A program made the translations under genes and the position numbers. The notes under the pieces are model-generated. The model worked only from the letters and a program-made list of their open reading frames with translations, was not told the DNA's origin and made no database searches. Positions 1,530 through 29,696 of a stretch of DNA of 33,429 nucleotides are shown piece after piece. Source of the DNA: an uncultured Acidimicrobiales bacterium (GTDB taxonomy: Bacteria; Actinomycetota; Acidimicrobiia; Acidimicrobiales; SHLQ01); contig CALHXU010000037.1 of assembly GCA_938040365.1 (NCBI GenBank), positions 1 to 33,429 of the forward strand. The letters run 5' to 3'. Position 1 is the stretch's first letter. The number at the start of each line of letters is the position of its first letter.

Positions 1530-1601
1530 GCCCTCGTAGCTCAGGGGATAGAGCATCGGCCTCCGGAGCCGTGAGCGCAGGTTCGAATCCTGCCGAGGGC
1601 G
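1530..1601 (+). tRNA. tRNA-Arg (anticodon CCG)
   Basis: A cloverleaf folds by eye. The 7-bp acceptor stem is GCCCTCG/CGAGGGC. The D arm is GCTC/GAGC. The anticodon loop is CTCCGGA with anticodon CCG at 1563-1565, which reads CGG. The T arm is GCAGG-TTCGAAT-CCTGC and the variable loop is short. The outermost anticodon-stem pair is a T-T mismatch. The 3' CCA is not encoded: the discriminator G at 1601 is followed by CAA. An IS is inserted three bases after the gene and its target duplication covers the 3' end of the tRNA, but this copy is intact. Confidence 0.93.
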
Positions 1602-1604
1602 CAA
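1590..1604. repeat. Left 15-bp target site duplication of the IS
   Basis: The 15-base sequence CTGCCGAGGGCGCAA occurs here, as the 3' end of the tRNA plus three bases, and again exactly at 2888-2902 on the other side of the IS. This marks the insertion site. Confidence 0.9.
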
Positions 1605-1629
1605 TGTGATGTCTCAGGACATCGGAAAC
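1605..1629. repeat. Left terminal inverted repeat of the IS
   Basis: Starts TGTGATGTCT and ends ACATCGGAAAC. The last 11 bases match the right end perfectly. Confidence 0.85.
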
Positions 1630-1665
1630 CCTCGAACCTGCGGTTCGGGGGTTTCCTCATTTTTT
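1624..1665 (+). terminator. Strong hairpin plus T-run just inside the IS left end
   Basis: A 15-bp stem (1624-1638 with 1642-1656, one G-T pair, loop TGC) is followed by TCA and six Ts at 1660-1665. It points along the plus strand, so it would stop transcription entering the element from the upstream tRNA gene. It overlaps the inverted repeat and the stop codon of the transposase. Confidence 0.75.
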
Positions 1666-2817
1666 GAAGCGTGGTTGGTAGCCGGTTTCGGGGTTGAGTG
1701 TGAGGTGTCGGAGGAGTTCTCCGGTGGTCTTGTTGACGACGCGTATGTCGAGGTCGTCGATGATGAGGATGACGGGTTGGTGTTTGTGGGCTCGGCCGAT
1801 CCCGATGTGGTGCATGCGGCCGGCTCGTCGGAGCGACACTGCCCCGGTTTTGTCGATCTTGTCGTGGCGGATTCGGTAGTGGTTTCCGGCTCCTTGGTCG
1901 TGCGGGGCGTCTTTGGGTAGCCGGTTGTAGGCAATGACGGGTGGGACTTTGCCGATGGCGGTGTGGGCTCGTTGGTGGTTGTAGATATCGACGAACTCGT
2001 CGGTGAGTTGTTGGAGTTCGGTGATGGTGTTGGCGGGTGGCCGTGCGGTGAGCCATTTCTTCATGGTTTGTTGGAAGCGTTCAACTTTGCCGGTCGTTGT
2101 CGGGTGGTTTGGTCGTGTGTGTTTTTGGGTGATGCCCAGGTCTGCGAGTCGGGTCTCGAGTTGGTTGCGTCCGCCTTTCCCGCCCGCGAACCGGGTTGTG
2201 TAAACGAGTCCGTTGTCGGTGAGGACCGATGCTGGGAACCCATTGGTTTCAGCGGTTTCGTTGAATGTGTCGCGGACGATGTTGCCGGTTATTCGCCGAT
2301 GGGCCGAAACGTGGAGTGCGTAGCGGGAGTGGTCATCGAGCCACGTAATTGTTTCGGTATCGGTGCCATCAGCGAGCCATATGTGGGTGAAGTCGGATTG
2401 CCATGTTTCGTTCGGGAGTGCTGCTTCGAAACGCATGTACGTGTTCTTGGGCCGTTTCTTCGGCTCTGGCTCGATCAGTCCGGCAGCGAGCAGGCGGCGT
2501 CGGATTGTCGACACTGACACAGTGATGTTGTGGTGGTGTTTGAGGTGCCATTGGATCGTGTGCGGCCCGGCATCTAAGCCTTGTTTGGTGAGGTCGACGC
2601 GCAGGTTCACTATCTGTTGGTTCACGACATCTGCAACACTCGTTGGTGAGGTATGGGGTCTCCGTGATTTAGGTTCGAACGCGGCTTCGCCCTCGGTTCG
2701 GTAGCGGGCCATCAGCTTGGAGACCCAGCTGCGCGAAACCCCGAAACGCCTCGCTGCTTCAGACTGTGAGATGCCCTCCACAGTCACCGACATGATGATC
2801 GCTCGCGCCTTTGACAT
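1657..2817 (-). CDS. IS481-family DDE transposase
   Basis: Catalyses transposition of the surrounding IS. An N-terminal helix-turn-helix (EGISQSEAARRFGVSRSWVS) is followed by a second DNA-binding segment and an integrase-core domain. Catalytic acids are visible as D142 (WQSDFTH), D201 (LTDNGLVY) and E246 (GKVERFQQT). The ATG at 2817 gives 386 residues. An in-frame TTG at 2832 would add five residues, and neither start has a clear ribosome site. The stop codon lies beside the IS left-end terminator. No frameshift or internal stop is seen, so the enzyme may be active. Confidence 0.92.
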   Translation of the reverse strand: MSKARAIIMSVTVEGISQSEAARRFGVSRSWVSKLMARYRTEGEAAFEPKSRRPHTSPTSVADVVNQQIVNLRVDLTKQGLDAGPHTIQWHLKHHHNITVSVSTIRRRLLAAGLIEPEPKKRPKNTYMRFEAALPNETWQSDFTHIWLADGTDTETITWLDDHSRYALHVSAHRRITGNIVRDTFNETAETNGFPASVLTDNGLVYTTRFAGGKGGRNQLETRLADLGITQKHTRPNHPTTTGKVERFQQTMKKWLTARPPANTITELQQLTDEFVDIYNHQRAHTAIGKVPPVIAYNRLPKDAPHDQGAGNHYRIRHDKIDKTGAVSLRRAGRMHHIGIGRAHKHQPVILIIDDLDIRVVNKTTGELLRHLTLNPETGYQPRFKK

Positions 2818-2862
2818 CACCCACGATGCCAACCCGATTGTTTCCTATGTCCAGAACAAAAT

Positions 2863-2887
2863 GTTTCCGATGTCTTGAACCACAACA
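2863..2887. repeat. Right terminal inverted repeat of the IS, with subterminal copy
   Basis: GTTTCCGATGTCTTGAAC at 2863-2880 is echoed 23 bases further in by GTTTCCTATGTCCAGAAC at 2840-2857 (15 of 18 bases alike). The doubled motif at this end, in front of the transposase gene, could be a second transposase-binding site. Confidence 0.8.
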
Positions 2888-2902
2888 CTGCCGAGGGCGC
2901 AA
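2888..2902. repeat. Right 15-bp target site duplication (3' end of tRNA-Arg)
   Basis: Exact copy of 1590-1604. It is a fragment of the tRNA 3' end and cannot form a tRNA on its own. Confidence 0.9.
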
Positions 2903-2979
2903 CACCGATCGACTACACTAGAAATGCCGCACAAAATCGTGTTTTGGTGTTCTGCCAAAGTCGTTTGTACTCTCAGGGT

Positions 2980-2997
2980 TTGGTGCGGCTGCACCAA
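2980..2997 (+). promoter_or_regulatory. Leader hairpin before the first coiled-coil gene
   Basis: TTGGTGC-GGCT-GCACCAA is a perfect 7-bp stem with a 4-base loop. It ends 16 bases before the ATG at 3014, leaving the ribosome site GGAG free. The second coiled-coil gene has a hairpin of the same shape at the same place. A possible -10 (TACACT, 2914-2919) upstream would put it in a 5' leader of about 85 bases. Confidence 0.4.
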
Positions 2998-3013: not shown

Positions 3014-5944
3014 ATGTCAGGTAGCGATCCGTCTGAACAAGGCGATCAAACAAGGTGGGAAAACACCGAAGAAACGCGCGCCCAGTCACGGTTCCCGGGT
3101 GCCGATCGCTGGCGCACGCCGGTGGTTGAGGACCGAAGCGAACAACTCATTCGAGAGCGCGAATCGCTCGTCGAGTTCGCTGGTGAGCTCCGTGCGTTCC
3201 GACTCGACCTCGAGCGTCAACGAGACGAACTCGACACGACCCAGCGCGAACAACACCGACGCAAGGTTGCGCTCGACCTCGAACTCTCCAAGCTCCACGC
3301 AAAAGAAGCCGAACTCGCCGACCTCAACGCATCGCTTAACGCGCAGGTAGAAAGCCTCGAACGCCAAGTCGAAGAAGCAGCAGACTCCACCCAGATGCAA
3401 AGTGCCGAACTCGAGGCACTGCATATCGAGCGGGGACGAATCGAACACGCTCGCAACGAACTGCGCGACGAAGAACAAGTACTCATCGAGCAACGAGAAC
3501 GACTGAAGAAACAATTCGAAGACCTCGGATTCCAAGAGGGCACGGCAAGACGAGAAGAGCTCGAACTCGAACAGCGCCTCGGCGAGCTTCGCGAACGCAG
3601 TCAGGAACTCGAAGACCTCAATGCCGACCTCGCAGAGGAAGAGGCTCTGCTCGCTGCTCGAACCTCCGAGATTGGGACTCGCTCCGAGCGACTTGCTGAC
3701 CAGCGCAAGAAAATCGCCGCCGAAGCCCAGGAACTCGACGAGGTCGAGATTGGTCACGCTCGCCGAATCGCCGAACTCGAACTCGCCGAAACCGACATCC
3801 GTCTCCAAGAGACCGACATCGACAACCAGCGTAAGGCGCTGACCGCCCGCGAGGCCGAACTCGGCGCCAAGCGCGAAGCGATCGACGAGGCCGAGCACGA
3901 ACTCCGCGCACTTCGTGCCGAAGTGAGCAACCAACGCGACGCAGTGGAACAACAGCGCGAGGCCCAGCGGGTAGAAGCCGAACGACTTCGTAGCGAAAGC
4001 GCCGCCGAATTCACCGCGGCAGAGGACCTCGCTGCATTACGCAGCCGGTCGATCGAAGAACAGCAGCGCGAACTCGATAGCGCGGCCGAAGATCTTGAGC
4101 GCCGCCGCCTCGGCCTCGCCGCTGAAGCAGATCAGCTCGCTGGGGCACGCGCCGAACTCGACGTCGAACGCGACGATATCGAGGCCGAACGTGTGGTTCT
4201 GGCCGCACAATCCGAGGAGATCGACCAGCTCGAGGACGAGCTCGACGAACGCCGGATCACCATCGAGATGGTCAACGCTCGCCAAGCCGAACTCGCTGCC
4301 CAAACCGCAGAACTCGACTCGATCGACGAAGAATTGGCGATGCGCCGTACCGCCATCGATGCAACGAGAGCACAGATCGCAGAAGACGAAGCGCTACTCG
4401 CCGAACTCGACGATGAACAAGCCACGATCGCAGCAAAGCGGGCCGCACTAGAAGGCCAGCGCGCCGAGCTCGCCGAAGCGGTCGAATCCAACCGGGCGTG
4501 GCAAGCCGAAGTCGACCTCGAACGCAGTTGGCTCGAAGCAGAACAAGCCGGACTCGACTCGCGCACTGCAATGTTACGAACGAGCCAGGCCGACCTCGAA
4601 GACCGCGAGAATCGGGCGGCCGAACGCGGCTCGATCCTCGACGACCGTGAGCGCGAGCTCAAGCGCCTCAACGGCGTCCTCGATGATCAACAGACGGTCC
4701 TGACCGCCCGTGTTGCCGAGCTCGAACAACTCCACCACACCCTCGAGAGTCGTGCGGAGGACCTAGAGGCCGAAGCCAGCCGACTCGATTCTCGGGACGA
4801 AGTTCTTCGTGCCCGCCGAGAGAACCAGGCCGAGGCCGAGGCAGAACTCGAAGAGCTCGATGCCGTGATCCTGCAAAGCGCTGAGGAACTTGACGCCCGT
4901 CTCGAAACCCTGGCCGCGCACGAAGCACAAATCGCCGAGCGTGAGCACAACTACAACGTCCAGCGGCACGAGATGATCGACCGTATGGCACAGATCGAAC
5001 AAGACCGAGCCCAGCTCGAAGAGGCTGAGCGCCTCATCTCGCGCTTGGAGAACGAACGGCGCGAGGTCGATGACGAACTGATTGCGCTTCAGAACCGCCG
5101 TGAAGAACTGTCGATCGAAAAGGCGCGACTTGCTGGCGCCGAAGAAGAAGTGTCGATGACAACCGAACAGCTCAACCTGGAGCGAAACCAACTCGAGAGC
5201 GAACGCCATGACGTTGCGGTGCAGCGCAAGTCGCTCGCCGAGCAACGCGAGCGACTTCTCGTCGCCGACGCGGCAGTCCGGGCCCGAGAGCTCGACCTCG
5301 ATGCCGAGAACGAAACGCTCGACGCCGACGTTGCCCGCCTTGCCGAGCGGCGCCGAGCACTCACCGACGAGCGGGTGGGCCTCCAAGAAGCAACGCTGCA
5401 ACTCGAGCAGCGTCGCGCTGCACTCGAAGCCGATCGAGAAATGGTCGATGCCGAGTACCGCGCGGTTACCGAAGACCAGGTCGAGAGCGAACGTCAACGA
5501 AGCTCACAACGCAAGTTACTCAGCGACGTGCAGAGCCGGGCCGAGTCCCTGCGCAAGCAGTCAGCGACGATCGATATGCGCACCAAGACGCTGTCATCGA
5601 ACGAGGCCGACCTCGACGAAGCCGCCGCAGCACTCGAGCTTCGTCAGCGCACTCAAAACCAGACCGCGCAGCGTCTCGAAGAATCCCGACTCGAACTCGA
5701 CGACGACCGAAAAGAAATCGAAGAGCGACGCAAAGCGCTCGTCGCCGAGCGGACCCGCATCGAACAGATGTGGAGCCTCATGGAGCAACACCGCGAGACA
5801 TCGGCCCAGCTCGTCGATTCACTCGCACCCGATGAGCGGGTTGCCAACGCCGAATTCATCGACCTCACCGAGAACGACGTGACAGCCGCCGACATTGATT
5901 TGACCACTCCTCCAGTTTCAGAAAACCCGTCAACAGCCGATTAA
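3014..5944 (+). CDS. Very long coiled-coil protein (976 aa), paralogue of the next gene
   Basis: No enzyme domain, signal peptide or membrane segment is visible. After a polar N-terminus of about 40 residues, an almost unbroken coiled coil runs to about residue 940. It is rich in Glu, Arg, Ala, Leu and Gln, with hydrophobic residues at heptad spacing. It has no ATPase head, so it is not an SMC or Rad50. Near the C-terminus ERTRIEQMWSLMEQHRE (Trp at 920) matches ERTRIAEMWELVGRHRE in the next gene. The acidic tail carries the repeated word IDLT (FIDLTEN, DIDLTTP). The ATG at 3014 has GGAG five bases upstream. A longer frame from 2924 would add a Cys-rich stretch unlike the rest and is rejected. 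A structural or scaffold role is inferred from composition only. Confidence 0.8.
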   Translation: MSGSDPSEQGDQTRWENTEETRAQSRFPGADRWRTPVVEDRSEQLIRERESLVEFAGELRAFRLDLERQRDELDTTQREQHRRKVALDLELSKLHAKEAELADLNASLNAQVESLERQVEEAADSTQMQSAELEALHIERGRIEHARNELRDEEQVLIEQRERLKKQFEDLGFQEGTARREELELEQRLGELRERSQELEDLNADLAEEEALLAARTSEIGTRSERLADQRKKIAAEAQELDEVEIGHARRIAELELAETDIRLQETDIDNQRKALTAREAELGAKREAIDEAEHELRALRAEVSNQRDAVEQQREAQRVEAERLRSESAAEFTAAEDLAALRSRSIEEQQRELDSAAEDLERRRLGLAAEADQLAGARAELDVERDDIEAERVVLAAQSEEIDQLEDELDERRITIEMVNARQAELAAQTAELDSIDEELAMRRTAIDATRAQIAEDEALLAELDDEQATIAAKRAALEGQRAELAEAVESNRAWQAEVDLERSWLEAEQAGLDSRTAMLRTSQADLEDRENRAAERGSILDDRERELKRLNGVLDDQQTVLTARVAELEQLHHTLESRAEDLEAEASRLDSRDEVLRARRENQAEAEAELEELDAVILQSAEELDARLETLAAHEAQIAEREHNYNVQRHEMIDRMAQIEQDRAQLEEAERLISRLENERREVDDELIALQNRREELSIEKARLAGAEEEVSMTTEQLNLERNQLESERHDVAVQRKSLAEQRERLLVADAAVRARELDLDAENETLDADVARLAERRRALTDERVGLQEATLQLEQRRAALEADREMVDAEYRAVTEDQVESERQRSSQRKLLSDVQSRAESLRKQSATIDMRTKTLSSNEADLDEAAAALELRQRTQNQTAQRLEESRLELDDDRKEIEERRKALVAERTRIEQMWSLMEQHRETSAQLVDSLAPDERVANAEFIDLTENDVTAADIDLTTPPVSENPSTAD

Positions 5945-5968
5945 ATCAGGTACACAGATAGTTAATGG

Positions 5969-5986
5969 GCCGAGAGGATTCTCGGC
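5969..5986 (+). promoter_or_regulatory. Hairpin between the two coiled-coil genes
   Basis: GCCGAGA-GGAT-TCTCGGC is a perfect 7-bp stem with a 4-base loop. It ends 15 bases before the ATG at 6002, just upstream of the ribosome site AAGGA (5990-5994). No T-run follows, so it is not an ordinary terminator. It may set mRNA stability or the ratio of the two proteins. Confidence 0.4.
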
Positions 5987-6001
5987 ATCAAGGAACCTTT
6001 C

Positions 6002-7975
6002 ATGTCTGACTCGACATCAGAAGACAACAACGCAAAGGATGATCCGTCCGAGGACCTTCGGCGCACCCGCATCGATCGCTCGGCAGCGTCACTCGACGCG
6101 GAAGAAGAGCTGCTCGTCACCCGTCGCAAGCAGCTCGACAAGCTTCGTGAGCAGATCGAACGAACCCAAGGCGAACAGCGGGCCGAGCTTGCCCGAATCG
6201 AGGAGGGACGTCGCCAACTCAACGACCTCGCCGCCGAAGTCGAGCAACGCCGCTACGAAGTCGATGATTACCGGGCGCAACTGATCGAGGCCGAGAACGA
6301 CCTCAGCAGCCGCCGCGGCGCGCTTTCGAAAATGCGGGTCGAAGGCGACGCAACGACGAGCGCAGATGCTGAAGAAAACGCTGACGAGCTGGCCGCGGAA
6401 CGCGCCGCGATTGAGCAGCAAACGACCGAACTCCGAGAGCTGCGCGCCACGCTCGATTATGACCGAGTGCAGCTCGAGAAGCGCACAAAAGAGCTCGAGC
6501 GCCGAACCGATGAGCTCGATGCTGAGAAGAAGCAGCTGCGCGATGAAACTGCAGATGAGTCCGCGAACCTGAGCGAAGCAAAGGCGGCGCGAGCTGAAGC
6601 GAAGGCCGAGCGTGAGAAGCTCGAAGCTGAGCTTTCCGAACTCGAAGAGTTGCGCGTTGAAGTCGCAAATGCAACAGGTGAGGTCGAGGCGCTGAAATCC
6701 ATCGCGTCAGACTCGGGCGGCAAGGAAGACGCGAGCGGGGTGCTTCTCGACGAGGCCGAGGTAGAGAAGCGAAAGAAGGCGGTAAAGCGTCTGAAGAAGT
6801 CTCTGGCCAAAGATGAAGAAGAGATCAACGCACGGACCGCCGAGCTCAACAAAAAGCGAGACGAGATCGCTGGTCAAGACGCCGACGTCACCCAAGCCGC
6901 CACAGCCCTCGAGGAGCGCACGGCTGCACTCGAATCGGCAGAGGCGGTCGTCGTTGCAGACGAGCGGGCGCTCGCTGCACGTCAGGCCCAACTCGAAACC
7001 GACACGAACTCGCTCGAGACTCGGTCGAGCGAACTCGAAGATCGTCAGGCCGCCCTTGAGGAGCAGCGGGCACAGCTCGTCGAGAGCGAAGCCGAACTCG
7101 ACGAACTACGAACTCAGATGGAGATGCTCGATTCTGAACGCCAGCAACTCGACGACGACGCTGCGCTGCTCTCTCATCAACGCGCCCAGATCGACTTTGA
7201 GAAGGCGCAGCTCGCTGGTTCATCTGCCGAGCTCGAAGATCAGCGGAACATGTCGATCGAACAGCGCGAGCACATCGAGGCCGAGCAAGCGTTGCTTATC
7301 GAGCAGAAGGAAGCGCTCGCCGAGCAGCGCCGACAGCTCGGCCAGCAGGCCGAGTTCGTTGCCCGCCAGCAACACCAACTGACCGAGCGTCGCCGTCAGC
7401 TCGATGAGGAGGGCGACATCCTCGACGAACGTGCAGCGCAGTATGAGCGGGATCGAGGCGTCCTCGACGAAAAGCTCGAACTCCTCGCTACCCAGCAAAC
7501 AGACTTTGAAGATGCCGAGAGCCACACCACCGCTGAGCTCGCTCAGCTGAGCAACGTGCGGGCCGAGGTAAATAGTCGGCGTGAGGTCATTAAGGGCGAA
7601 GAGGCTGAGCTCCGCAAGCTCATGGCGATCGTCAATGACCGCCGCGAAACGCTGAACACCAATCAGCTCGAGTTCGACCGCAAACAGACCGAGATCGCCG
7701 CCGAGAGCGGCCGCCTTGATTCATTGCGTGCCGACAACAGTGAGGAGAAGCGACGTCTCGACGCAGAGCGCATTCACCTCGACGAACTTGCGAAGCGCCT
7801 TCGGGCCGAAGAGCGTGCGCTCAACGAGGAGCGCACTCGTATCGCAGAGATGTGGGAGCTCGTTGGACGCCATCGCGAACAGGCCCGCCAGATCATCACG
7901 GCGCTCGGCCCAGAGGCCATGGGGGCTTTCGACGACGGCCTCAGCGGCCTAGACGCAATCGACGGCGGCGCTTAG
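6002..7975 (+). CDS. Long coiled-coil protein (657 aa), second of a tandem pair
   Basis: Same design as the preceding gene, 57 bases downstream: a short acidic N-terminus, then coiled coil from about residue 15 to 635, with no enzymatic or membrane domain. The C-terminal motif ERTRIAEMWELVGRHRE has its Trp at 618, and Leu and Pro downstream (ALGP) match SLAP in the partner. The tail here is short and Gly/Asp-rich and lacks the IDLT words. The ribosome site AAGGA lies seven bases before the ATG. The two genes look like one operon arising by duplication and divergence. Such composition is often labelled SMC-like in automatic annotation, but there are no Walker motifs. Function unknown. Confidence 0.8.
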   Translation: MSDSTSEDNNAKDDPSEDLRRTRIDRSAASLDAEEELLVTRRKQLDKLREQIERTQGEQRAELARIEEGRRQLNDLAAEVEQRRYEVDDYRAQLIEAENDLSSRRGALSKMRVEGDATTSADAEENADELAAERAAIEQQTTELRELRATLDYDRVQLEKRTKELERRTDELDAEKKQLRDETADESANLSEAKAARAEAKAEREKLEAELSELEELRVEVANATGEVEALKSIASDSGGKEDASGVLLDEAEVEKRKKAVKRLKKSLAKDEEEINARTAELNKKRDEIAGQDADVTQAATALEERTAALESAEAVVVADERALAARQAQLETDTNSLETRSSELEDRQAALEEQRAQLVESEAELDELRTQMEMLDSERQQLDDDAALLSHQRAQIDFEKAQLAGSSAELEDQRNMSIEQREHIEAEQALLIEQKEALAEQRRQLGQQAEFVARQQHQLTERRRQLDEEGDILDERAAQYERDRGVLDEKLELLATQQTDFEDAESHTTAELAQLSNVRAEVNSRREVIKGEEAELRKLMAIVNDRRETLNTNQLEFDRKQTEIAAESGRLDSLRADNSEEKRRLDAERIHLDELAKRLRAEERALNEERTRIAEMWELVGRHREQARQIITALGPEAMGAFDDGLSGLDAIDGGA

Positions 7976-19098: not shown

Positions 19099-20355
19099 AT
19101 GCGCAGAAATTTCAGACTTATCCTGGCGCTGCTCGCAGCGCTCAGTCTCTTTGCCGCCGCGTGCGGCAGCACCGTCTCTGACGTTGCGTCCGACACCGCA
19201 GACGTCGTCGAAGACGCTGTCGACGGCGACGGCGACGGCGACGGCGACGAAGAAGAGGCCATGGAAGATGAAGAAGAAGCCATGGAGGACGAAGAAGAGG
19301 CCATGGAAGATGAAGAAGCCATGGAGGACGAAGAGGTTGCAGAAGAAGAAGCTGCTGCAGCTTCGAGCGACACGAGCGTTGGCCTCGTGTACGACATTGG
19401 TGGCCGCGGCGACCTGTCATTCAACGACTCGGCAGCTGAAGGCCTCGAGCGAGCAAACGATTCGCTCGGCGTGACGTTCACTGAAGCCTCGCCAAATGAC
19501 GACGGCTCAAACCGTGCCGAGCTGCTCCAGCTCGCCGCGGACGACAACCCGATCGTCATCGGCGTTGGCTTCCTCTTCGAAGCCGACGCAGCAGCGACCG
19601 CAGCCGAAAACCCAGACACCAACTTTGCGGTCGTCGACTCGGCCATGATCGACTTCAGCCTCGACCCACCAGCACCGTACGGACCAAACGTTGCCGGCCT
19701 CGTCTTTGCTGAAGAGCAGGGCTCCTACCTCGTTGGCGTCGCAGCAGCGCTCACGTCAGAGACCAACCAGGTTGGCTTCATCGGCGGCGTTTGCTGCTTC
19801 GGCCTTATCGAGAAGTTCGAAGCTGGCTTCACCGCTGGCGCACGCTCGGTTAACCCCGACATCGAGGTCGTCGTCGAATACATCACCGATGCACCTGACT
19901 TTGACGGCTTCAACCAGCCCGACCGTGCACAGGTCATCGCAACCACCATGTACGAAGATGGCGCCGACGTCATCTACCACGCAGCTGGTGGTGCAGGTAA
20001 CGGCATGTTCCAAGCAGCGGCCGACTTCTCCGACGACAACGGCACCAAGGTATGGGGCATCGGCGTCGACTCCGATCAGTTCAACACGATCGGCGCAGTC
20101 GACCCAGACCTCCAAGAGTTCGTGCTTACCTCGATGCTCAAGCGTGTCGACACCGCCGTCGTCGAGATCCTGACCGCACAAGCCAACGGCGAGTTCGTCG
20201 CTGGTCCAAACACCTACGACCTTTCGGTCGATGGCGTTGGTTACTCGACCTCGGGAGGATTCGTCGACGACATCATTCCCGACCTCGAAGCAGCGAAGGC
20301 AGCGATCATCGCCGGCGACGTCGTCGTACCAACCGACCCAACCGAGGTCGGCTAA
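19099..20355 (+). CDS. BMP/PnrA-type nucleoside-binding lipoprotein of an ABC importer
   Basis: Captures substrate, most likely purine or other nucleosides, outside the membrane for the ABC transporter encoded downstream. 418 residues. The lipoprotein signal ends in LFAAAC with Cys22. A strongly acidic low-complexity linker (about 40-91) contains GDGDGDGD and repeated EEEAMED units. The BMP domain starts at VGLVYDIGGRGDLSFNDSA and shows IGVGFLFEADA, NVAGLVFAEEQGSYLVGVAA, VGFIGGVCCFG, DVIYHAAGGAGNGMFQAA and WGIGVDSDQ, typical of BmpA/PnrA. GGAGGGG precedes the ATG. The linker is much longer and more acidic than usual for this family. Two hairpins follow the stop. Confidence 0.92.
   Translation: MRRNFRLILALLAALSLFAAACGSTVSDVASDTADVVEDAVDGDGDGDGDEEEAMEDEEEAMEDEEEAMEDEEAMEDEEVAEEEAAAASSDTSVGLVYDIGGRGDLSFNDSAAEGLERANDSLGVTFTEASPNDDGSNRAELLQLAADDNPIVIGVGFLFEADAAATAAENPDTNFAVVDSAMIDFSLDPPAPYGPNVAGLVFAEEQGSYLVGVAAALTSETNQVGFIGGVCCFGLIEKFEAGFTAGARSVNPDIEVVVEYITDAPDFDGFNQPDRAQVIATTMYEDGADVIYHAAGGAGNGMFQAAADFSDDNGTKVWGIGVDSDQFNTIGAVDPDLQEFVLTSMLKRVDTAVVEILTAQANGEFVAGPNTYDLSVDGVGYSTSGGFVDDIIPDLEAAKAAIIAGDVVVPTDPTEVG
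19249..19329 (+). repeat. In-frame 21-bp tandem repeats (EEEAMED)
   Basis: Three 21-base units (19249, 19270, 19291) and one 18-base unit (19312-19329) encode EEEAMED three times and EEAMED once. Units one and three are identical in DNA, hinting at a 42-base higher-order period. Confidence 0.85.
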
Positions 20356-20367
20356 CGCCACTGTCGT

Positions 20368-20389
20368 GAGCGTTCACTTATGAACGCTC
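20368..20389 (+). other. 3' hairpin after the binding-protein gene
   Basis: GAGCGTTCA-CTTA-TGAACGCTC is a perfect 9-bp stem, 12 bases past the stop. With no T-run it probably protects the mRNA end rather than terminating. Confidence 0.5.
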
Positions 20390-20400
20390 GTTAGCAGACA

Positions 20401-20468
20401 ACCAAGACCGGGCTCTCCGCTTTTCCTCCTACGGGAGGCATCGGGTAGGGTCCGGTCTTGGTCTTTTT
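20401..20468 (+). terminator. Intra-operon attenuator between binding protein and ATPase
   Basis: ACCAAGACCGG pairs with CCGGTCTTGGT (11 bp) and is followed by CTTTTT; the loop holds a small CCTCC-TACG-GGAGG hairpin. Partial termination here would give more binding protein than transporter core, a common arrangement. Confidence 0.75.
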
Positions 20469-20489
20469 CGGGGAAGGTGCGAGAGTGCG

Positions 20490-22022
20490 ATGAGCGCAGC
20501 TATCGAGCTAACTGGCATCACAAAACGGTTTCCAGGTGTCATTGCAAACGATGATGTGAATCTCACCGTAGAGAAGGGCGAAATTCACGCCATCTGCGGT
20601 GAGAACGGGGCCGGAAAGTCGACGCTCATGAAGATCCTGTACGGACTTCAGGGGGCAGACGAAGGCACCATGGCGGTGAACGGCGAGGTCGTCACGTTTA
20701 ATTCGCCAAACGATGCAATCGATCGCGGGATCGGCATGGTTCACCAGCACTTTATGCTCGCCGACCAACTCACCGTCCTCGAAAACATCATTCTCGGGGC
20801 CGAACCAACCTCGGGTGGCGGCGCGATCAAATTCAAAGAAGCCGAAGCTCAGCTCGCGAAGGTCGCTGCTGAATACGGGCTCACCATCGATCCGAACGAT
20901 CTGGTCGAAACCCTCGAGGTTGGTGAACGACAACGAGTAGAGATCATCAAGGTTCTCTACCGCGGCGCAGACATCTTGATTCTCGACGAGCCAACCGCAG
21001 TCTTGGTCCCACAGGAAGTCGAAGCACTCTTCGACAACATGCGCGACCTCAAAGCGGCCGGGGCAACGATTTTGTTCATCGACCACAAGCTCGACGAAGT
21101 CCTCGAAATTTCCGACAGCATCACCGTCCTTCGACACGGCAAGACCGTCGCGACCATGCGCAACGATGGTGTTACTGCGCACGATCTCGCCGAACTGATG
21201 GTCGGTAGCGAACTACCTACTCCCGAAACGGGCGAGTCGACGGTAACCGACACTGTCGCCCTTTCGATTCAGAACCTCACCGTGGTTGACGAAGACGCCC
21301 GACCGGTCCTCGAAGGCATCGATCTTTCTATCCGCAAAGGCGAGATTCTTGGGATCGCTGGGGTCGAGGGCAACGGGCAAGGCGAACTCGTCGACGCGAT
21401 CATCGGAACCGCCGCAGTTTCGGCCGGGACGATCGGCCTCCTCGGAAATGACATCACCAAGCTGTCGGTGCGCAAGCGCCGCGAAGCCGGTATTGGGTAT
21501 GTCCCCGAAGATCGCCACCGAGAAGGGCTCCTGCTCGACGCTCCCCTGTGGGAGAACGCTGCGCTTGGGCACCAGACCCAAGCACCCTATGGGTCCCGGT
21601 GGTTCATCGACCGTAAGGGAACCCGTCGGCAAACCGCCGAGATCAAAGAGCAGTTCGATGTCCGAACGCCCAACATCGACGTATCGGCACATGCACTCTC
21701 GGGCGGTAACCAACAAAAGTTGATCATCGGCCGCGAACTTACCTCCAACCCGTCGTTACTCATCGCAGCGCATCCAACGCGAGGAATCGACGTGGGGGCC
21801 CAAGCCGCGGTTTGGGAACAGATACGCGACGCCCGAGCGAACGGTTTAGCAACGTTGCTGATCTCTGCCGACCTCGACGAGTTGATCGGCCTCTCCGACA
21901 CGATCCTCGTCATGTTGCGCGGGCGACTCGTCGCTCAAGTCTCCCCCGATGACGTGACCCCACGCGACCTCGGCGCCTACATGACCGGCGCTGCAACCCA
22001 AGATGACGGGCAAGCCGCATGA
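20490..22022 (+). CDS. ABC transporter ATPase, two nucleotide-binding domains (NupO type)
   Basis: Powers nucleoside uptake at the inner face of the membrane. 510 residues with two fused ATPase domains. The first has Walker A GENGAGKSTLMK, signature LEVGERQRVEI and Walker B ILILDEPTAVL. The second has a P-loop-like GVEGNGQGELVD, signature LSGGNQQKLIIGREL and a Walker B ending LLIAAHPTRGID, where the catalytic Glu is replaced by His. Degeneration of the second site, usually to Gln, is known for sugar/nucleoside importers of this type, so only one site may hydrolyse ATP. The stop overlaps the next start by four bases (ATGA). Confidence 0.93.
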   Translation: MSAAIELTGITKRFPGVIANDDVNLTVEKGEIHAICGENGAGKSTLMKILYGLQGADEGTMAVNGEVVTFNSPNDAIDRGIGMVHQHFMLADQLTVLENIILGAEPTSGGGAIKFKEAEAQLAKVAAEYGLTIDPNDLVETLEVGERQRVEIIKVLYRGADILILDEPTAVLVPQEVEALFDNMRDLKAAGATILFIDHKLDEVLEISDSITVLRHGKTVATMRNDGVTAHDLAELMVGSELPTPETGESTVTDTVALSIQNLTVVDEDARPVLEGIDLSIRKGEILGIAGVEGNGQGELVDAIIGTAAVSAGTIGLLGNDITKLSVRKRREAGIGYVPEDRHREGLLLDAPLWENAALGHQTQAPYGSRWFIDRKGTRRQTAEIKEQFDVRTPNIDVSAHALSGGNQQKLIIGRELTSNPSLLIAAHPTRGIDVGAQAAVWEQIRDARANGLATLLISADLDELIGLSDTILVMLRGRLVAQVSPDDVTPRDLGAYMTGAATQDDGQAA

Positions 22023-23143
22023 TTCGACGCATTGCCTTCATTGCTGCAGCACCGCTGGCAGCATTTGCCCTGACTCTCGTCATTTCGTCGCTCGCTCTAG
22101 TGGTCTTTGGATCGAACCCCATCGATGCGTTCTCCGACATGATCGGCCACGCCTCCGAGCTCGAGACTCAGGTAGACATTCTGAACCGGGCAACGCCGCT
22201 TTACCTGTCGGCGGTCGCAGCGGCGATCGGCTTTCGGATGAACCTGTTCAACATCGGAGTCGAGGGCCAGTACCTCTTTGGCTACATCATCGCTGCACAA
22301 GTCGGGACGATGCTGGCACTCCCAGCGATTATCCATATTCCGGTCATCTTGATCACCGCCATGATCACCGGCGGACTCTTCGCCGCAATCGCCGGCATCC
22401 TCAAGGTGACCCGAGGGGTCAACGAGGTGATCTCGACGATCATGCTCAACTCCATTGCTGTCGCGGGCATCATCGCTGCCCTGCAGGGTCGTTGGCAGCC
22501 TGAACAAGAAGAGTTCACCGCAACCACACTCGGAACCGCGCCGATCGACGACACCGGCCTGCTTCCCAACATCAACGGACTCGTCGAGATATTCACCCGC
22601 GAGATCGAACAGGGCGGCGAGCTGACCGGAATGCTCCTCGTCGCAATCGGCGTTGGAGTGGCCTACCACCTGCTCCTCACCAGAATGCGCTTTGGCTTCG
22701 ACTTGCGGGCGAGCGGACTCAATCCGTTCGCTGCTCGCGCTGGTGGCGTTGCTCCCAAGCAGATGATCGTCGCCGCGATGTTCCTCTCGGGCGCTGTCGC
22801 TGGCCTGATCGGTATGGTCGAGCTGGCCGAAGAGGGCCGGTTCCCCGCCGACCCAATTCAAGGCCTCGGATTCGCCGGAATCGCCGTTGCGCTCCTCGGC
22901 CGCAACCACCCCGGCGGGATGGCATTTTCAGCCCTACTCTTTGCGTTCCTCGACGTATCGGCGGGCATCTTGCAATCGACTCAGACAGCGACCAAAGAGA
23001 TCGTCAACATCATGCAAGGAATCGTCTTGCTGGCAGCGGTGATCGCCTATGGCATCACCAAGCGTGTTCAGACCCGTGAAGAAGCTCGGGCGACCGCCGA
23101 GGCGCTACAAAGCGTAGAAACAAACACCGAGGTGACAGTATGA
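22019..23143 (+). CDS. ABC nucleoside transporter permease 1 (BPD_transp_2 family)
   Basis: 374-residue multi-pass membrane protein of the branched-chain amino acid/sugar/nucleoside permease family. Family marks are RATPLYLSAVAAAIGFRMNL, FNIGVEGQYLFG, GVNEVISTIMLNSIA and AGGVAPKQMIVAAMFLSGAV, then GLGFAGIAVALLGRNHPGG. It resembles the longer of the two permeases in BmpA/NupA-type nucleoside importers. Overlaps of four bases with the ATPase upstream and the second permease downstream show translational coupling. Confidence 0.92.
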   Translation: MIRRIAFIAAAPLAAFALTLVISSLALVVFGSNPIDAFSDMIGHASELETQVDILNRATPLYLSAVAAAIGFRMNLFNIGVEGQYLFGYIIAAQVGTMLALPAIIHIPVILITAMITGGLFAAIAGILKVTRGVNEVISTIMLNSIAVAGIIAALQGRWQPEQEEFTATTLGTAPIDDTGLLPNINGLVEIFTREIEQGGELTGMLLVAIGVGVAYHLLLTRMRFGFDLRASGLNPFAARAGGVAPKQMIVAAMFLSGAVAGLIGMVELAEEGRFPADPIQGLGFAGIAVALLGRNHPGGMAFSALLFAFLDVSAGILQSTQTATKEIVNIMQGIVLLAAVIAYGITKRVQTREEARATAEALQSVETNTEVTV

Positions 23144-24378
23144 GCGCGATACTGAAGCTCCCCGCATGGCTGCGATGGCCGCTCTATGTGCTGGTTGGAA
23201 TCTTTGTGCTCACGGTCGTCCAGTCGATCAGCGACACCGAGCGCCTTACCCAAGTCGCGACCGCCCGAGAGATGCTCCGCTTTTCGGTGCCGATCTTCCT
23301 CGCTGGCCTTGGCGGTCTGTTCAGCGAACGATCGGGAGTCGTCAACATTGGCCTCGAAGGCATGTTGATCCTCGGTATGTGGTTCGGCGCGTGGGGATCG
23401 ATCGAGTACGGGGCTTGGGCAGGACTAGCGATCGGCATGGCAGGTGGCGCGCTTGGCGGTCTACTCCACGCAATCGCCACCGTGTCCTTTGGCGTCGACC
23501 ACATCATCTCCGGAGTTGCGATCAACATTTTGGCGCCCGCGCTCACCCGCTTCCTCGCGGACGAAGTATGGGAATCGCCCACCACCTCGCCCCGCACCGA
23601 AAGTGTTGGGGACTGGGATGTTCCGTTCCTCGCCGGCGGAACGATCTTTGGAAACGAGACACCCGACATTTTGCTCAGCATTGGTCAAACCGAGATTTGG
23701 TTCGTGCACGACGTTGCTCAGCTCCTTCGCGGCTTGCTCCGCGGCACCCACTTCGTCTCCTACTTTGCGATCCTGCTCGTGCCGATCACGACCTGGATTG
23801 TTTGGCGGACCAGGTTCGGGCTTCGACTCCGCATCGCCGGCGAAGACCCGGTCGCAGGCGCAGCGCAAGGTATCAACATCACCCGCTACAAGTACGTTGC
23901 CGTGATTTTGTCAGGAGTGCTCGCCGGGCTTGGCGGCGCCTTCATCTCAACCGAACTCTCCGGATTGTTCCAAGGTGGCAACAGCGCCGGCCGAGGTTTC
24001 ATTGGGCTCGCCGCGCTCATCTTTGGCAACTGGCGACCCGGGGGTGTGTTGATCGGAGCGTTGTTGTTTGGCTATGTCTTTGGTCTCGATCTTCGCGATC
24101 TCGACGGCACGGCAAGCCACGCGATGCTGCTCGTGAACACCATTGCGTTGGTCGGCGTCGGTGCGTGGGCGCTTTCCCGAAACCGCACAACCGACGCGAT
24201 TCTCGCCGGAATTCTCGGCACGCTCTCGTTCATTTGGTGGGTCTCGTCAGACACCGTGCCGAGTTGGTGGAGCAACATCTTGCCGTTCGTGCTCGTGTTG
24301 TTGGTGCTGGTGTTCTTTGCCCAGCGTCTTCGAATGCCTGCAGCGCTCGGCATGCCGTTCCGAAAGGGCGATAGTTAA
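23140..24378 (+). CDS. ABC nucleoside transporter permease 2
   Basis: 412 residues, multi-pass membrane protein pairing with permease 1. Core marks are REMLRFSVPIFLAGLGGLFS, ERSGVVNIGLEGMLILGMWF, GVDHIISGVAINILAPALTR and GRGFIGLAALIFGNWRPGG. It is longer than many relatives because of an N-terminal helix and extra C-terminal helices (about residues 330-400). The ATG overlaps the previous stop (ATGA). The next gene starts two bases after its stop. Confidence 0.92.
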   Translation: MSAILKLPAWLRWPLYVLVGIFVLTVVQSISDTERLTQVATAREMLRFSVPIFLAGLGGLFSERSGVVNIGLEGMLILGMWFGAWGSIEYGAWAGLAIGMAGGALGGLLHAIATVSFGVDHIISGVAINILAPALTRFLADEVWESPTTSPRTESVGDWDVPFLAGGTIFGNETPDILLSIGQTEIWFVHDVAQLLRGLLRGTHFVSYFAILLVPITTWIVWRTRFGLRLRIAGEDPVAGAAQGINITRYKYVAVILSGVLAGLGGAFISTELSGLFQGGNSAGRGFIGLAALIFGNWRPGGVLIGALLFGYVFGLDLRDLDGTASHAMLLVNTIALVGVGAWALSRNRTTDAILAGILGTLSFIWWVSSDTVPSWWSNILPFVLVLLVLVFFAQRLRMPAALGMPFRKGDS

Positions 24379-24380
24379 GC

Positions 24381-25220
24381 GTGTCGATCGCATCGTTTTC
24401 GGCCGATAATTTTGAACGCAACGGCGTTGCGGTCTTTCCCGGCGCCGTCACGAGCGAACAGCTCGATGCGTTCAGGGAGGCAGTCGATGACCTCGTCACC
24501 GACTTCGACCCCGACGGTGTCCGCACCGTCTTTTCGACAGACGATCAGAGTCACGCCCGGAGCGACTATTTCTTGACGTCGGGCGACAAGACCCGATACT
24601 TCCTCGAGGATGGCGCCACCGATTCTGATGGGGTCATAGTCGGAGACAAACGGCGAGCCTTGAACAAGATTGGTCACGCAATGCATGACCTCGATCCAAA
24701 GATCGGCGAGTTCTGCCGGTCGAGTGGGTTCGCTGGCGCAGCGGCGGCGGTCGGGATGGTCTCGCCGTTGCTCTTACAGTCGATGGTCATCTTCAAGAAC
24801 CCCGAGGTCGGCGGCGAGGTCAGCACCCACACCGACCACACATTCTTGTGGACCGAGCCGCAAAGCGTGATCGGCTTTTGGGTCGCAGCCGATGACGCCA
24901 CCCAAGAGAATGGCTGTCTCTGGGCCCTGCCTGGGGGACACTCGATCCCGGTCAAGGAGCGGTTTCAGCGCACGGCGAGCAACGAGGCGACCGAAATGAT
25001 CGTCCTCGATGAGACGCCATATCCAACAGATGGCTGGGTACCACTCGAAGTCGAAGCCGGAACCCTCATTGCACTCCACGGATCGCTACCCCACCGCAGC
25101 GCGCCCAACCGTTCGTCGAAGCCTCGACTTGCCTTCACCCTGCACTGCATCGAAGCTGACGCCGACTACCCCGAGAGCAACTGGCTGCAACGACCAGATT
25201 TGCCTCTCATGGGCTTCTAA
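24381..25220 (+). CDS. Phytanoyl-CoA dioxygenase (PhyH) family Fe(II)/2-oxoglutarate oxygenase
   Basis: Predicted non-haem iron oxygenase using 2-oxoglutarate and O2. 279 residues. The iron triad is visible as His150 and Asp152 (STHTDHTFLW) and His238 (SLPHRSAPN), with Arg249 (KPRLAF) placed to bind 2-oxoglutarate. Substrates of this family vary widely and cannot be read from sequence; phytanoyl-CoA is only the eponym. The GTG start lies two bases after the permease stop, so it belongs to the transporter operon, which suggests action on the imported compound or a product of it. Confidence 0.88.
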   Translation: MSIASFSADNFERNGVAVFPGAVTSEQLDAFREAVDDLVTDFDPDGVRTVFSTDDQSHARSDYFLTSGDKTRYFLEDGATDSDGVIVGDKRRALNKIGHAMHDLDPKIGEFCRSSGFAGAAAAVGMVSPLLLQSMVIFKNPEVGGEVSTHTDHTFLWTEPQSVIGFWVAADDATQENGCLWALPGGHSIPVKERFQRTASNEATEMIVLDETPYPTDGWVPLEVEAGTLIALHGSLPHRSAPNRSSKPRLAFTLHCIEADADYPESNWLQRPDLPLMGF

Positions 25221-25262
25221 CTAGACCCCCTTTCGGGGCCGCTCGGCCGGCGCCGATATCGG

Positions 25263-25268
25263 TACGCT
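25263..25268 (+). promoter_or_regulatory. -10 element for a leaderless peptidase mRNA
   Basis: TACGCT, six bases before the GTG at 25275. It would let the peptidase be transcribed independently of the transporter operon. Confidence 0.4.
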
Positions 25269-25274
25269 CGGGGC

Positions 25275-27353
25275 GTGACCAACTTCGATGAACCTGCTGA
25301 CCCATCTACGCACCCCGACATCGACCCGCACCTCTGGCTCGAGGAAGTAGAGGGCGACGCTGCGTTGGCGTGGGTGAGGGCACAGAATGAACGCACCCTT
25401 GGCGAGCTGCAGAACGATCCTCGGTACGCAGGACTCGAAGCTGCAGCGCTCGATGTTTTGACCGCTGATGATCGCATTCCCTACGGGACCATTCGCGGCG
25501 GGTGGATGTACAACTTCTGGCAGGACGACGAGCACGTGCGTGGGTTGTGGCGACGCACCCCGCTCGACAGTTACCGGACCGCCGATCCAGATTGGGAGAT
25601 CTTGCTCGACGTCGACGCCTTGGCCGAAGCCGAAGGCGCCAATCACGTCTTCAAAGGAGCGAAGGTCTTTCGACGCAAAGGCGGCGAAACCTACCGATGC
25701 ATGCTCTCGTTCTCCGATGGCGGCAAGGATGCCATCACCCAACGAGAGTTCGACATTGCATCCCGGTCGTTTGTCGATGGCGGGTTCGAAACTCCCGAGG
25801 CGAAGCAAGGCGCCGAATGGCTCGACGACGACACGCTACTCATCGCGACCGACTGGGGTCTCGACGCATCCACGCTCACCGAGTCCGGCTATCCCTACGT
25901 CGTCAAGCGTTGGGAGCGCGGCACCCCGCTCGACGACGCGGTCGAGGTGCTTCGTGGAACACCTGGCGACGTTGGCGTCTTTGCGTTCACGATGGAGAAC
26001 GAGGACGGAAAGCTTCTGTCGGGAGCGGTGCAGGCCGATACGTTCTTCACCTCGACCTACTGGCTCTTCACCGACTCTGGGCCGGTGCAATTTCCAATCC
26101 CGCCGAAATCTACGCCGAACGGGATCTCAAATGGCAGGTTGCTGTTGTCGCTCGAACAGGACTGGGAGGTTGGCGGGCTGCAGTTCGCCACCGGCGACCT
26201 CGTGGCATTCAATCTCGGCCACTTCCTCGACACCCACACAATCGACACGGTGGAGCTGGTTTTCCGGCCGACCGAAAGCCAGGCCGTGAGCGGTATTGCT
26301 GTCGCTGCGGGAGGGACCTTGCTCGCCATCACCGAAAACGTTGTAGGGCGCATTCTTCGTCTCGAACCGGGGAACGACGGCTGGAAGACAACGCCGATCG
26401 ATCTTCCCGGATCTGGAGATGTTGCGATCACCTTTGCCGACCGCGACGAACAGCTCGTCCTCGTCAACTACGAAGACTTCCTCACGCCGACTTCGCTTCT
26501 GGCCCTCGATTCAGTTTCGGGAACACTCGATGTCTTGAAGACGATCCCGCCTCGCTTTGACACCGACGGGCTCATCGTCGAACAACTGATGGCAACGTCG
26601 AGCGACGGTACGCAGATCCCCCATTTCGTGGTTCGCCAAGTCGATGCTCCCTTCGATGGCACAACGCCGACGTTGCTCTATGGCTACGGCGGTTTCCAAG
26701 TCCCACTCAACCCGTCCTACAGCGGCACGATTGGACGCAACTGGCTCGAGCATGGCGGTGCATTCGTGATGGCGAACATTCGTGGTGGCGGCGAGTTCGG
26801 CCCGACCTGGCACCAAGCGGGCCTCACGACCGACCGCCAACGCGTCTACGACGACTTCATCGCCGTCGGCGAGTCCATTATTTCCTCTGGGCTGACATCG
26901 GCTGCGCACCTCGGCATCATGGGCGGATCGAACGGCGGCCTACTCATGGGCGTCATGTTGAATCAACGACCCGACCTGTGGAACGCCGTGGTAATTCAGG
27001 TTCCGTTGCTCGACATGTTGCGCTACCACGTACTGCTCGCTGGAGCCTCATGGGTCGATGAGTACGGTTCGCCCGATGATCCGGTCGAGCGGGCGTTCCT
27101 TGAGAGAACCTCGCCGTATCAGAACTTCGACCCCGAGCTGGCCTACCCAACGCCGCTGTTTGTGACCTCGACGAAAGACGATCGAGTGCACCCCGGACAC
27201 GCCCGCAAAATGGCAAAGAAGTTTGAGGACGCTGGTCTTGCCTTCTGGTACTACGAGAACATCGATGGCGGACACTCAGCTGCGGCTAACCAGACCGAGG
27301 CAGCGAAACGCACCGCGCTCGAATATACCTATCTCATGAACCAACTCTCCTAA
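25275..27353 (+). CDS. Prolyl oligopeptidase family serine peptidase (S9)
   Basis: 692 residues, typical for S9A prolyl oligopeptidases, which cut short peptides after proline in the cytoplasm; no signal peptide is seen. An N-terminal segment (HPDIDPHLWLEEVEGDAALA) leads into a seven-bladed propeller of about residues 70-430. The alpha/beta-hydrolase domain has LLYGYGGFQVPLNPSYS, NIRGGGEFGPTWHQAG and the nucleophile Ser552 in MGGSNGGLLMG. An Asp follows at 635/636 (TSTKDDRVHPGHA) and His667 (DGGHSAA). The GTG at 25275 is supported by a -10 element six bases upstream. The 3' end, including the stop codon, is part of a 13-bp triple repeat. Confidence 0.92.
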   Translation: MTNFDEPADPSTHPDIDPHLWLEEVEGDAALAWVRAQNERTLGELQNDPRYAGLEAAALDVLTADDRIPYGTIRGGWMYNFWQDDEHVRGLWRRTPLDSYRTADPDWEILLDVDALAEAEGANHVFKGAKVFRRKGGETYRCMLSFSDGGKDAITQREFDIASRSFVDGGFETPEAKQGAEWLDDDTLLIATDWGLDASTLTESGYPYVVKRWERGTPLDDAVEVLRGTPGDVGVFAFTMENEDGKLLSGAVQADTFFTSTYWLFTDSGPVQFPIPPKSTPNGISNGRLLLSLEQDWEVGGLQFATGDLVAFNLGHFLDTHTIDTVELVFRPTESQAVSGIAVAAGGTLLAITENVVGRILRLEPGNDGWKTTPIDLPGSGDVAITFADRDEQLVLVNYEDFLTPTSLLALDSVSGTLDVLKTIPPRFDTDGLIVEQLMATSSDGTQIPHFVVRQVDAPFDGTTPTLLYGYGGFQVPLNPSYSGTIGRNWLEHGGAFVMANIRGGGEFGPTWHQAGLTTDRQRVYDDFIAVGESIISSGLTSAAHLGIMGGSNGGLLMGVMLNQRPDLWNAVVIQVPLLDMLRYHVLLAGASWVDEYGSPDDPVERAFLERTSPYQNFDPELAYPTPLFVTSTKDDRVHPGHARKMAKKFEDAGLAFWYYENIDGGHSAAANQTEAAKRTALEYTYLMNQLS

Positions 27354-27379
27354 CCAACTCTCCTAACCAACTCTCCTAA
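27341..27379 (+). repeat. 13-bp tandem repeat (three copies) across the peptidase stop codon
   Basis: CCAACTCTCCTAA occurs three times without interruption at 27341, 27354 and 27367. The first copy encodes the last residues and stop; the others are untranslated. Repeat slippage would not alter the protein. Confidence 0.9.
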
Positions 27380-27427
27380 CCCCTCTTCGAACCCTCTCCT
27401 CTAGCCCTCCCCCAAACGACCCCACCT

Positions 27428-27482
27428 CAGGATTTGTCCCCCGTTTGATACCGCATAGGTTCCAAACGGGGGACAAATCCTG
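27428..27482. repeat. Perfect 20-bp inverted repeat between convergent genes
   Basis: CAGGATTTGTCCCCCGTTTG at 27428-27447 is exactly complementary to 27463-27482, with a 15-base loop. No T-run follows on either strand. It may act as a two-way transcription barrier between the peptidase and DUF72 genes, or be a mobile or REP-like repeat; it shares GGATTTG with the palindrome at 11141. Confidence 0.88.
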
Positions 27483-27499
27483 GAAGGGGTGGTCGTGGG

Positions 27500-28360
27500 T
27501 CAGCTGAAAAGCGATGGGTCGGTAACCGCAGGGGCGTCGGGCTGGGCGGGAAGGTCCGGAACCTCGACTCTGACCTCGTCGTAGAACTGGCGGGCGAGGT
27601 CGATGGCGGCGGCGTTGTCGGGAGTGTGGATGAACACGATCGGTGAGCGGCCGTCGCGTAACCATCGAGCCACCGTGGAAATCCACGGCGCCCAAAATTC
27701 TGGGTTCCCATCGGGTGCGGTCTGGCCGATGAACCGGACGATGGGCGTGTTGCTCGTCGCGACGGCCCGCACCGGAACCCGAGGCTTGTTCTCGAATGCC
27801 TCAATCTCGGACGGCGTGATTCGAGGGCCGGCGAACACTGCACGAGAATCGAGAATGATGCGGTCGGCCTCACGTGTGAAGAGCAGATCGTTGAGCGCTC
27901 GTTCGTTTGGCCCACCGTCGAAGAAATCGAGGTGACGGACCTCAACCCCATAACGAACCGTAGATGGAACCGATCGCAAAAACGTCTCGAGAACCGGCAA
28001 CGAGTCCGGGCCGAACGAGGCGGGAAGTTGCACCGCAACCGGATCCATCTTGGAAAGGCACGGCTCGAGGGCGTTGAAGAACGCGCCAACCTCGTCGGCG
28101 CAGTCTCGGAGTTTCCGTTCGTGAGTAACCGATTTCGAGAACTTGAACATGAACCGAAAGTTCGGTGGCGTTGCCTCTGCCCACCGTTGTGCGACCTCGG
28201 GTGTCGGGAGCGCATAGAAAGTCGTATTGCCTTCGACAGCCGAAACGAGGCGACCGTAGGCCGCGAGTTCTCCGCCCGCCGGGGTCGACTTTGGAATCGA
28301 ACGTCCGGGCCACGCCGAATTTGTCCACATTGCACAGCCCACCCGAAGAACACCCAACAT
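27500..28360 (-). CDS. DUF72 family protein
   Basis: 286 residues from ATG at 28360 (a GTG directly before it is an alternative). DUF72 proteins adopt a TIM-barrel fold and have no agreed function. Family marks are RVGCAMWTNSAWPG near the start, YGRLVSAVEGNTTFYALPT, PPNFRFMFKFSKSVTHERKL, VAVQLPASFG, YGVEVRHLDFF and IVFIHTPDNAAAIDLARQFY near the end. The gene stands alone and divergent from a reductase. A TATATT element eight bases upstream suggests a leaderless mRNA. Confidence 0.9.
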   Translation of the reverse strand: MLGVLRVGCAMWTNSAWPGRSIPKSTPAGGELAAYGRLVSAVEGNTTFYALPTPEVAQRWAEATPPNFRFMFKFSKSVTHERKLRDCADEVGAFFNALEPCLSKMDPVAVQLPASFGPDSLPVLETFLRSVPSTVRYGVEVRHLDFFDGGPNERALNDLLFTREADRIILDSRAVFAGPRITPSEIEAFENKPRVPVRAVATSNTPIVRFIGQTAPDGNPEFWAPWISTVARWLRDGRSPIVFIHTPDNAAAIDLARQFYDEVRVEVPDLPAQPDAPAVTDPSLFS

Positions 28361-28368
28361 CACGTCGG

Positions 28369-28374
28369 AATATA
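28369..28374 (-). promoter_or_regulatory. -10 element for the DUF72 gene
   Basis: Reads TATATT on the minus strand, eight bases before the ATG at 28360 (five before the alternative GTG). Confidence 0.5.
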
Positions 28375-28452
28375 GCCGTGGCGTGACGAGAGCGACGTGA
28401 AGAATGCCCGAACGGTCGGGGCTTGGCCGATCTTCGCTGGCAAACTGGCACT

Positions 28453-29676: not shown

Positions 29677-29696
29677 ATCCCTGATAGGAAACAGCG

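Follow-up and report, generated by a model that had tools for sequence, protein, structure and literature searches.

Closest described systems

Long coiled-coil proteins of bacteria are easily dismissed as low-complexity noise. Among those that have been described, the FilP/Scy/DivIVA-like proteins of Actinomycetota are long cytoplasmic coiled coils with disordered ends and no enzyme domain; FilP and Scy are characterised by extended hendecad repeats with an Ala-rich core, and DivIVA-like proteins by a GYDxxEVD motif (PMC9858780). The cyanobacterial ZicK and ZacK are two coiled-coil-rich proteins that are thought to act together (PMC7766704). A third point of comparison is offered by the spacer rods of giantin, Spc110 and Ndc80, which are eukaryotic, are flanked by known binding regions, and keep a fixed length while their sequence diverges (PMC5082667). 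The length of coiled-coil regions is in general less variable than that of other regions, and one that stays constant while sequence diverges is the signature of molecular spacers (PMC5082667).

The window analysed here, 33,429 nucleotides from an uncultured Acidimicrobiales bacterium, carries two neighbouring genes, A and B, that resemble each of these systems in part. Like the FilP/Scy/DivIVA-like proteins, A and B are long, predicted cytoplasmic coiled coils with disordered ends and no enzyme domain, but they lack the GYDxxEVD motif, are built of heptads rather than hendecads, have their conserved, Trp-containing end at the C-terminus, and are encoded as a tandem pair. Like ZicK and ZacK, they are two coiled-coil proteins that may act together; unlike them, they are paralogues encoded side by side, ending in the same cap and keeping the length of the rod fixed. 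They share a fixed rod length despite sequence divergence with the eukaryotic spacers, from which they differ in that their conserved ends are only short helical or peptide motifs and in that their length is residue-exact at about 43% identity. A and B appear to be an undescribed family of one genus with a quantitative functional signature: a shared cap, strong purifying selection, and a rod length that is residue-exact beside the cap and varies freely away from it.

The gene pair and its family relationships

Protein A (976 aa) is encoded at 3014..5944 and protein B (657 aa) at 6002..7975, both on the plus strand. The ATG of A at 3014 directly follows a ribosome-binding site (GGAGTAGGG) and is conserved in most orthologues; a longer mechanical open reading frame from 2924 was rejected because the conserved start is 3014. 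The two genes are co-directional, separated by 57 bp in the window and by 59-120 bp in four relatives. In A, a short DRW motif lies in the disordered N-terminus (3104..3112, plus strand, 9/10 orthologues), and the most conserved internal block (LERRRLGLAAEADQLAGARAELDVERDDIEAE...) lies at 4073..4252 (plus strand). Its disordered C-terminal tail, recognised from orthologues and the predicted model, carries two IDLT motifs at 5858..5905 (plus strand), and a VIDLT-type motif is found in the tail of all ten orthologues, 28-45 residues past the cap Trp. Orthologue comparison divides B, on the plus strand, into a conserved N-terminal block (residues 19-106, 6056..6319), a variable spacer (6320..7126), gauged by the distance from EEELL to DAALL, and a cap-proximal rod. 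The window's B is the shortest of the genus (781-917 aa in the others), owing to a stretch absent from the variable N-terminal half.

Profile searches did not place either protein in a known family. Neither A nor B matched Pfam, including DivIVA (PF05103) at E 0.1, a PHROG search gave no matches, and no family in Pfam, NCBIfam, PHROG or PDB accounts for them. A regular-expression scan of ten A and ten B proteins found no DivIVA-like motif, and their core consists of Leu and Arg, not the Ala-rich hendecad core of FilP and Scy. Matches of the cap in PDB were 12-18-residue stretches in unrelated proteins, such as the GTPase Rv1496 (LAELWDTVERHRQ), and were rejected as chance. NCBIfam returned SMC, HmpF and FlbB matches far below their cut-offs (30-48 bits for SMC, against cut-offs of 567-729). 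Judged by these searches, A and B form a family not described before. The sequence-only reading of this DNA, which had proposed two adjacent reading frames of almost pure coiled coil, free of ATPase, membrane or enzyme domains, and had recognised no described family for them, thus holds in each of these respects, and the two affiliations it had named as threats, to DivIVA/Scy/FilP-like proteins and to SMC fragments, were both looked for and not found.

The sub-threshold matches to the coiled-coil parts of SMC and JetC could still be read as a sign that A and B are headless fragments of SMC-, MukB- or Jet-like chromosome or defence machinery. We consider this extremely unlikely. The matches reach 16-48 bits, against SMC cut-offs of 567 and 729, and those to SMC, HmpF and JetC are confined to coiled coil. 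The ABC-type ATPase head and the hinge of SMC, MukB and Rad50 proteins are both lacking, there are no kleisin or nuclease neighbours, and the conserved start codons and caps indicate whole proteins, not fragments.

The shared C-terminal cap and the paralogy of A and B

A and B end in a matching cap, ERTRI..MW.L...HRE...L.P, located on the plus strand at 5747..5830 in A (ERTRIEQMWSLMEQHRETSAQLVDSLAP, W920; identified by scoring of sequence segments and from orthologues) and at 7829..7912 in B (ERTRIAEMWELVGRHREQARQIITALGP, W618), where the last predicted helix ends at residue 635. The ungapped BLOSUM score of the two caps in the window is 83, against at most 25 for any other pairing of segments (z 8.6); over 28 residues in the ten species the caps score 53-83 and the other pairings at most 36 (z 6.0-8.6). 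The window's B contains no Trp other than W618, the cap Trp is the sole one of B in 8/10 species, and the pattern ER.R....W.....HR is invariant in all 20 homologues.

The similarity is not limited to the cap. When profiles of the C-terminal 270 residues of each protein are compared, the score is 142 over 258 columns, with indels of only one heptad each way, and it is still 83 when the cap is left out; control scores, from other parts of A, reversed B and a coiled coil of the sister genus, are 21-58. As this C-terminal homology lies well above the coiled-coil controls, A and B are, at the level of sequence profiles, tandem paralogues over their C-terminal ~260 residues. The remainder of the two proteins gave no confident alignment. 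The matching cap and the duplication suggested earlier are thus both borne out, the cap in all ten species and without loss in any homologue, and the duplication as homology in register; the idea that the likeness consists of the cap needs correcting, since it spans about 260 residues.

Distribution and genomic context

The orthologue set consists of ten species-level genomes from one genus of Acidimicrobiales, including several close pairs, and amounts to approximately five to seven independent comparisons. The two genes lie side by side in the same direction in 10/11 genomes of this genus and in 10/10 of those holding the locus, so the co-occurrence proposed as a check on the pair was found wherever it could be. 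The eleventh genome (G002, 85% complete) appears to be an assembly without the whole locus, since the neighbouring PI3K-like gene is also missing. With a profile of 40 cap residues, precisely two genes are retrieved per locus-bearing genome of the genus (E 1e-14 or better); outside the genus, the best E is about 1e-3 in searches that covered 397 genomes from the order and 396 from the phylum. Searches of the class and the family had the same outcome, and the cap is confined to the genus among ~950 actinobacterial genomes. Weak matches elsewhere (E 1e-3 or worse) fell on coiled coil or on short fragments and were discarded. In public records, these loci belong to metagenome-assembled genomes of Acidimicrobiales.

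The usual gene order in the genus is argS (divergent), tRNA-Arg(CCG), A, B, a uracil-DNA-glycosylase-type gene, a histidine phosphatase, DUF3090, a PI3K-like gene and ETF. The tRNA-Arg(CCG) directly upstream of the pair lies at 1530..1602 (plus strand) in the window. The minus-strand frame at 1-1445 is a truncated argS (arginyl-tRNA synthetase cluster) that runs off the contig end, and the listed plus-strand frame at 21-911 is antisense to it. At the 3' end of the tRNA, the window carries an rve-type transposase element (1601..2891, minus strand; transposase 1657-2832) that has imperfect 29-bp inverted repeats at its ends and is absent from the same locus in relatives. A 15-bp flank shared at this element (CTGCCGAGGGCGCAA) duplicates the 3' end of tRNA-Arg(CCG).

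A promoter-like element, TTTTGG[A/T]-N19/20-TACTCT (TAACCT in G004), precedes A in 10/10 genomes (2942..2974, plus strand, in the window). This promoter-like sequence is undamaged by the insertion element, which stops about 50 bp before it. The form that it takes in the window occurs once in the genome, and membership of a regulon was rejected for that reason. Between the promoter-like sequence and the ribosome-binding site lies a hairpin (2980..2997, plus strand), which possibly serves 5' UTR regulation or stabilises the mRNA; several relatives have a leader hairpin before A, of differing sequence. Selection on both genes is, on the present estimates, strongly purifying, with a dN/dS of 0.03-0.10 in A and one not exceeding 0.025 in the fixed block of B, synonymous sites being near saturation in some pairs.

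The position of the pair directly downstream of tRNA-Arg(CCG), with an insertion element at the site in the window, would also suit lineage-specific cargo of a tRNA-adjacent variable site, accessory or selfish and with no housekeeping role. Other families of the order often have the argS/tRNA-Arg end but no coiled coil, with other genes or nothing in its place, and the sister genus g4 has an unrelated-looking single coiled-coil gene there. Against this, A and B are kept in every locus-bearing genome under strong purifying selection and behind their own conserved promoter-like element, their G+C equals that of the surroundings, and no plasmid or viral relatives were found, so that a mobile or viral origin was rejected. 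The cargo explanation is in our judgement very doubtful.

The g4 gene (G013, G016, G017 and G018; L116:5689-7944, L117:7994-10354, L118, L119:8574-10997) encodes 707-807 aa at the same argS/tRNA-Arg locus. It is like A and B in bacterial family, locus, orientation and long charged coiled coil, and unlike them in having its own N-terminal domain and a polyproline linker and in lacking the MW cap. The domain is highly conserved (RSAPHPGRIREQ.WFT.G.FDQVDDLE.WCDNLD), has no Pfam match, and did not turn up outside g4 in a search of 248 genomes; profile comparison of the g4 coiled coil with A and B gave a score not above coiled-coil background.

The window's own genome (G000) has five DivIVA-domain matches, on contigs C56, C252, C105, C276 and C148 (L198-L202), several of them in long frames, and these proteins could be natural partners of A and B. 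A polar or division-site scaffold working with host DivIVA, in the manner of the organiser Scy and with either the VIDLT-type tail or the cap as the partner-binding element, would be in keeping with them, with the actinobacterial host, and with the short peptide motifs conserved in the disordered ends of A. However, neither A nor B carries a DivIVA-like motif, the argS, tRNA-Arg and uracil-DNA-glycosylase-type genes of the locus are not accompanied by any division or cell-wall gene, and restriction to one genus is unlike core polarity factors. A polar role of this kind is quite improbable.

Coiled-coil character

Leucine autocorrelation in both A and B reaches 3.0-3.8 at spacings of 7, 14, 21, 28 and 35, and the two are therefore genuine heptad coiled coils; periods of 7 and 3.5 stand out in power and autocorrelation, and those of 11/3 and 51 are absent. 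One position of each heptad is strongly hydrophobic (56-69% Leu). In the cap-proximal parts the second core position, four residues after Leu, is mostly Arg (42-45%), and in the preceding segment of A Arg makes up 39% at three residues after Leu. The cap Trp sits in the second core position, W920 of A continuing the heptad core. AlphaFold2 models are helical throughout, with predicted breaks at residues 498-517 of B and 207-212, 380-386, 534-541 and 696-709 of A; at a pTM of 0.24-0.25 they were used for secondary structure only.

Relative to the Trp, the orthologue-averaged hydrophobic register of A equals that of B over the last ~239 residues. A first heptad assignment by dynamic programming had placed a stutter in B only, which would have argued against A:B dimers; this argument was dropped because the averaged register puts both proteins in the same phase. 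Charge pairing at g-e' and in the a layer showed no in-register preference among A:A, B:B and A:B.

Rod length near the cap and a possible spacer function

Distances between conserved landmarks were measured in unaligned proteins. In B, the rod from the DAALLS motif to the cap Trp (7157..7855, plus strand) is 232 residues long in 10/10 orthologues, at a mean identity of 74%. The corresponding distances in A are 243 residues from RLE(N/D)ER (9/10) and 549 from EADQL (7/10), with two further orthologues at 591, exactly 42 residues or six heptads longer. From residue 31 (DRW) to W920 the distance is 889 residues (127 heptads) in 6/10, and these six are 42-44% identical across the deeper splits. 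Length constancy rises towards the cap, as landmark distances are fixed near it while the middle of B ranges from 352 residues in the window to 561 in other species. A rods of other total lengths are found in the more distant lineages G001, G003 and G006/G008; thus, the 889-residue length is a property of a clade. Pairwise alignments of the A proteins that have this length with that of the window have zero gaps over 890 aa at 43-44% identity, and one other pair has two compensating gaps; the middle of B in the same species has 6-9 gaps per 352 aa. Identity in ungapped 60-residue segments is 0.23-0.80, against a heptad-shifted background of 0.18-0.19. Part of this conservation must be generic, given that coiled coils vary little in length (PMC5082667).

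Both proteins conserve length while their sequence diverges, and the ends of the rods carry conserved motifs (cap, DRW, VIDLT-type) that are putative binding modules. As neither a head nor an enzyme domain is recognisable, function would have to reside in the rod itself, in its ends and in how long it is. The explanation we favour, with about an even chance of being right, is that A and B are expressed together in the cytoplasm as coiled-coil rods of fixed length, which serve as spacers or scaffolds and dock through the cap. The single conserved promoter-like element before A and the 57-bp gap suggest that these tandem-duplicated genes are co-transcribed; their products, which lack a catalytic head, would act together. 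The cap, formed by the last helix turns with a core Trp, would be a common docking site or a site of end-to-end assembly, where A and B bind either the same partner or one another. Through its exact length and heptad register, the cap-proximal rod would keep partners that are bound along it or at its far end at set distances, about 132 nm in A and about 92 nm in this species' B if both are straight dimers, with the N-terminal half of B as an adjustable arm and the disordered DRW N-terminus and VIDLT-type tail of A as peptide hooks for a partner. The earlier suggestion that different lengths point to hetero-assembly is weak, as B varies from 657 to 917 aa between species and its cap-proximal part is constant.

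The main rival is that A and B are intermediate-filament-like and self-polymerising, as homopolymers or a co-polymer, giving shape or stiffness in the manner of FilP or crescentin. Both have the long cytoplasmic rod, the non-helical ends and the lack of an enzyme domain that broadly mark such proteins, and A shares with FilP a tripartite layout of disordered head, long rod and disordered tail (PMC6599971). Length-invariant rods would permit periodic lateral packing, and ZicK and ZacK provide a precedent of two mutually dependent polymerising coiled-coil proteins (PMC7766704). Filament formation is somewhat unlikely, however, given heptads rather than hendecads, no sequence relation to FilP or Scy and no DivIVA-like motif, and an N-terminal half of B whose length differs between species by as much as about 200 residues, an unusual trait for a packed filament repeat.

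If the spacer explanation is true, length-calibrated rods are a device that bacteria have in common with eukaryotes, which employ them in centrioles, kinetochores and the Golgi. In its strictest form, which we put forward tentatively and consider unlikely, the pair would be a two-component molecular ruler: adjacent paralogous rods, exact to the residue and joined by the Trp cap, that set a spacing of about 90-130 nm in the cytoplasm of this one genus and change in cap-proximal length by whole heptads if at all.

Other genes near the pair

Immediately downstream of B, six members of the genus (e.g. L039:9307-9663 and L043:11966-12304) have a small lipoprotein-like gene in the opposite orientation, which is missing in the window. 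Further downstream, positions 19099-31543 of the window hold an unbroken series of genes for a PnrA-like (Bmp) binding protein, an ABC ATPase, two permeases and an adenosine deaminase, which looks like an ordinary nucleoside uptake and salvage cluster.
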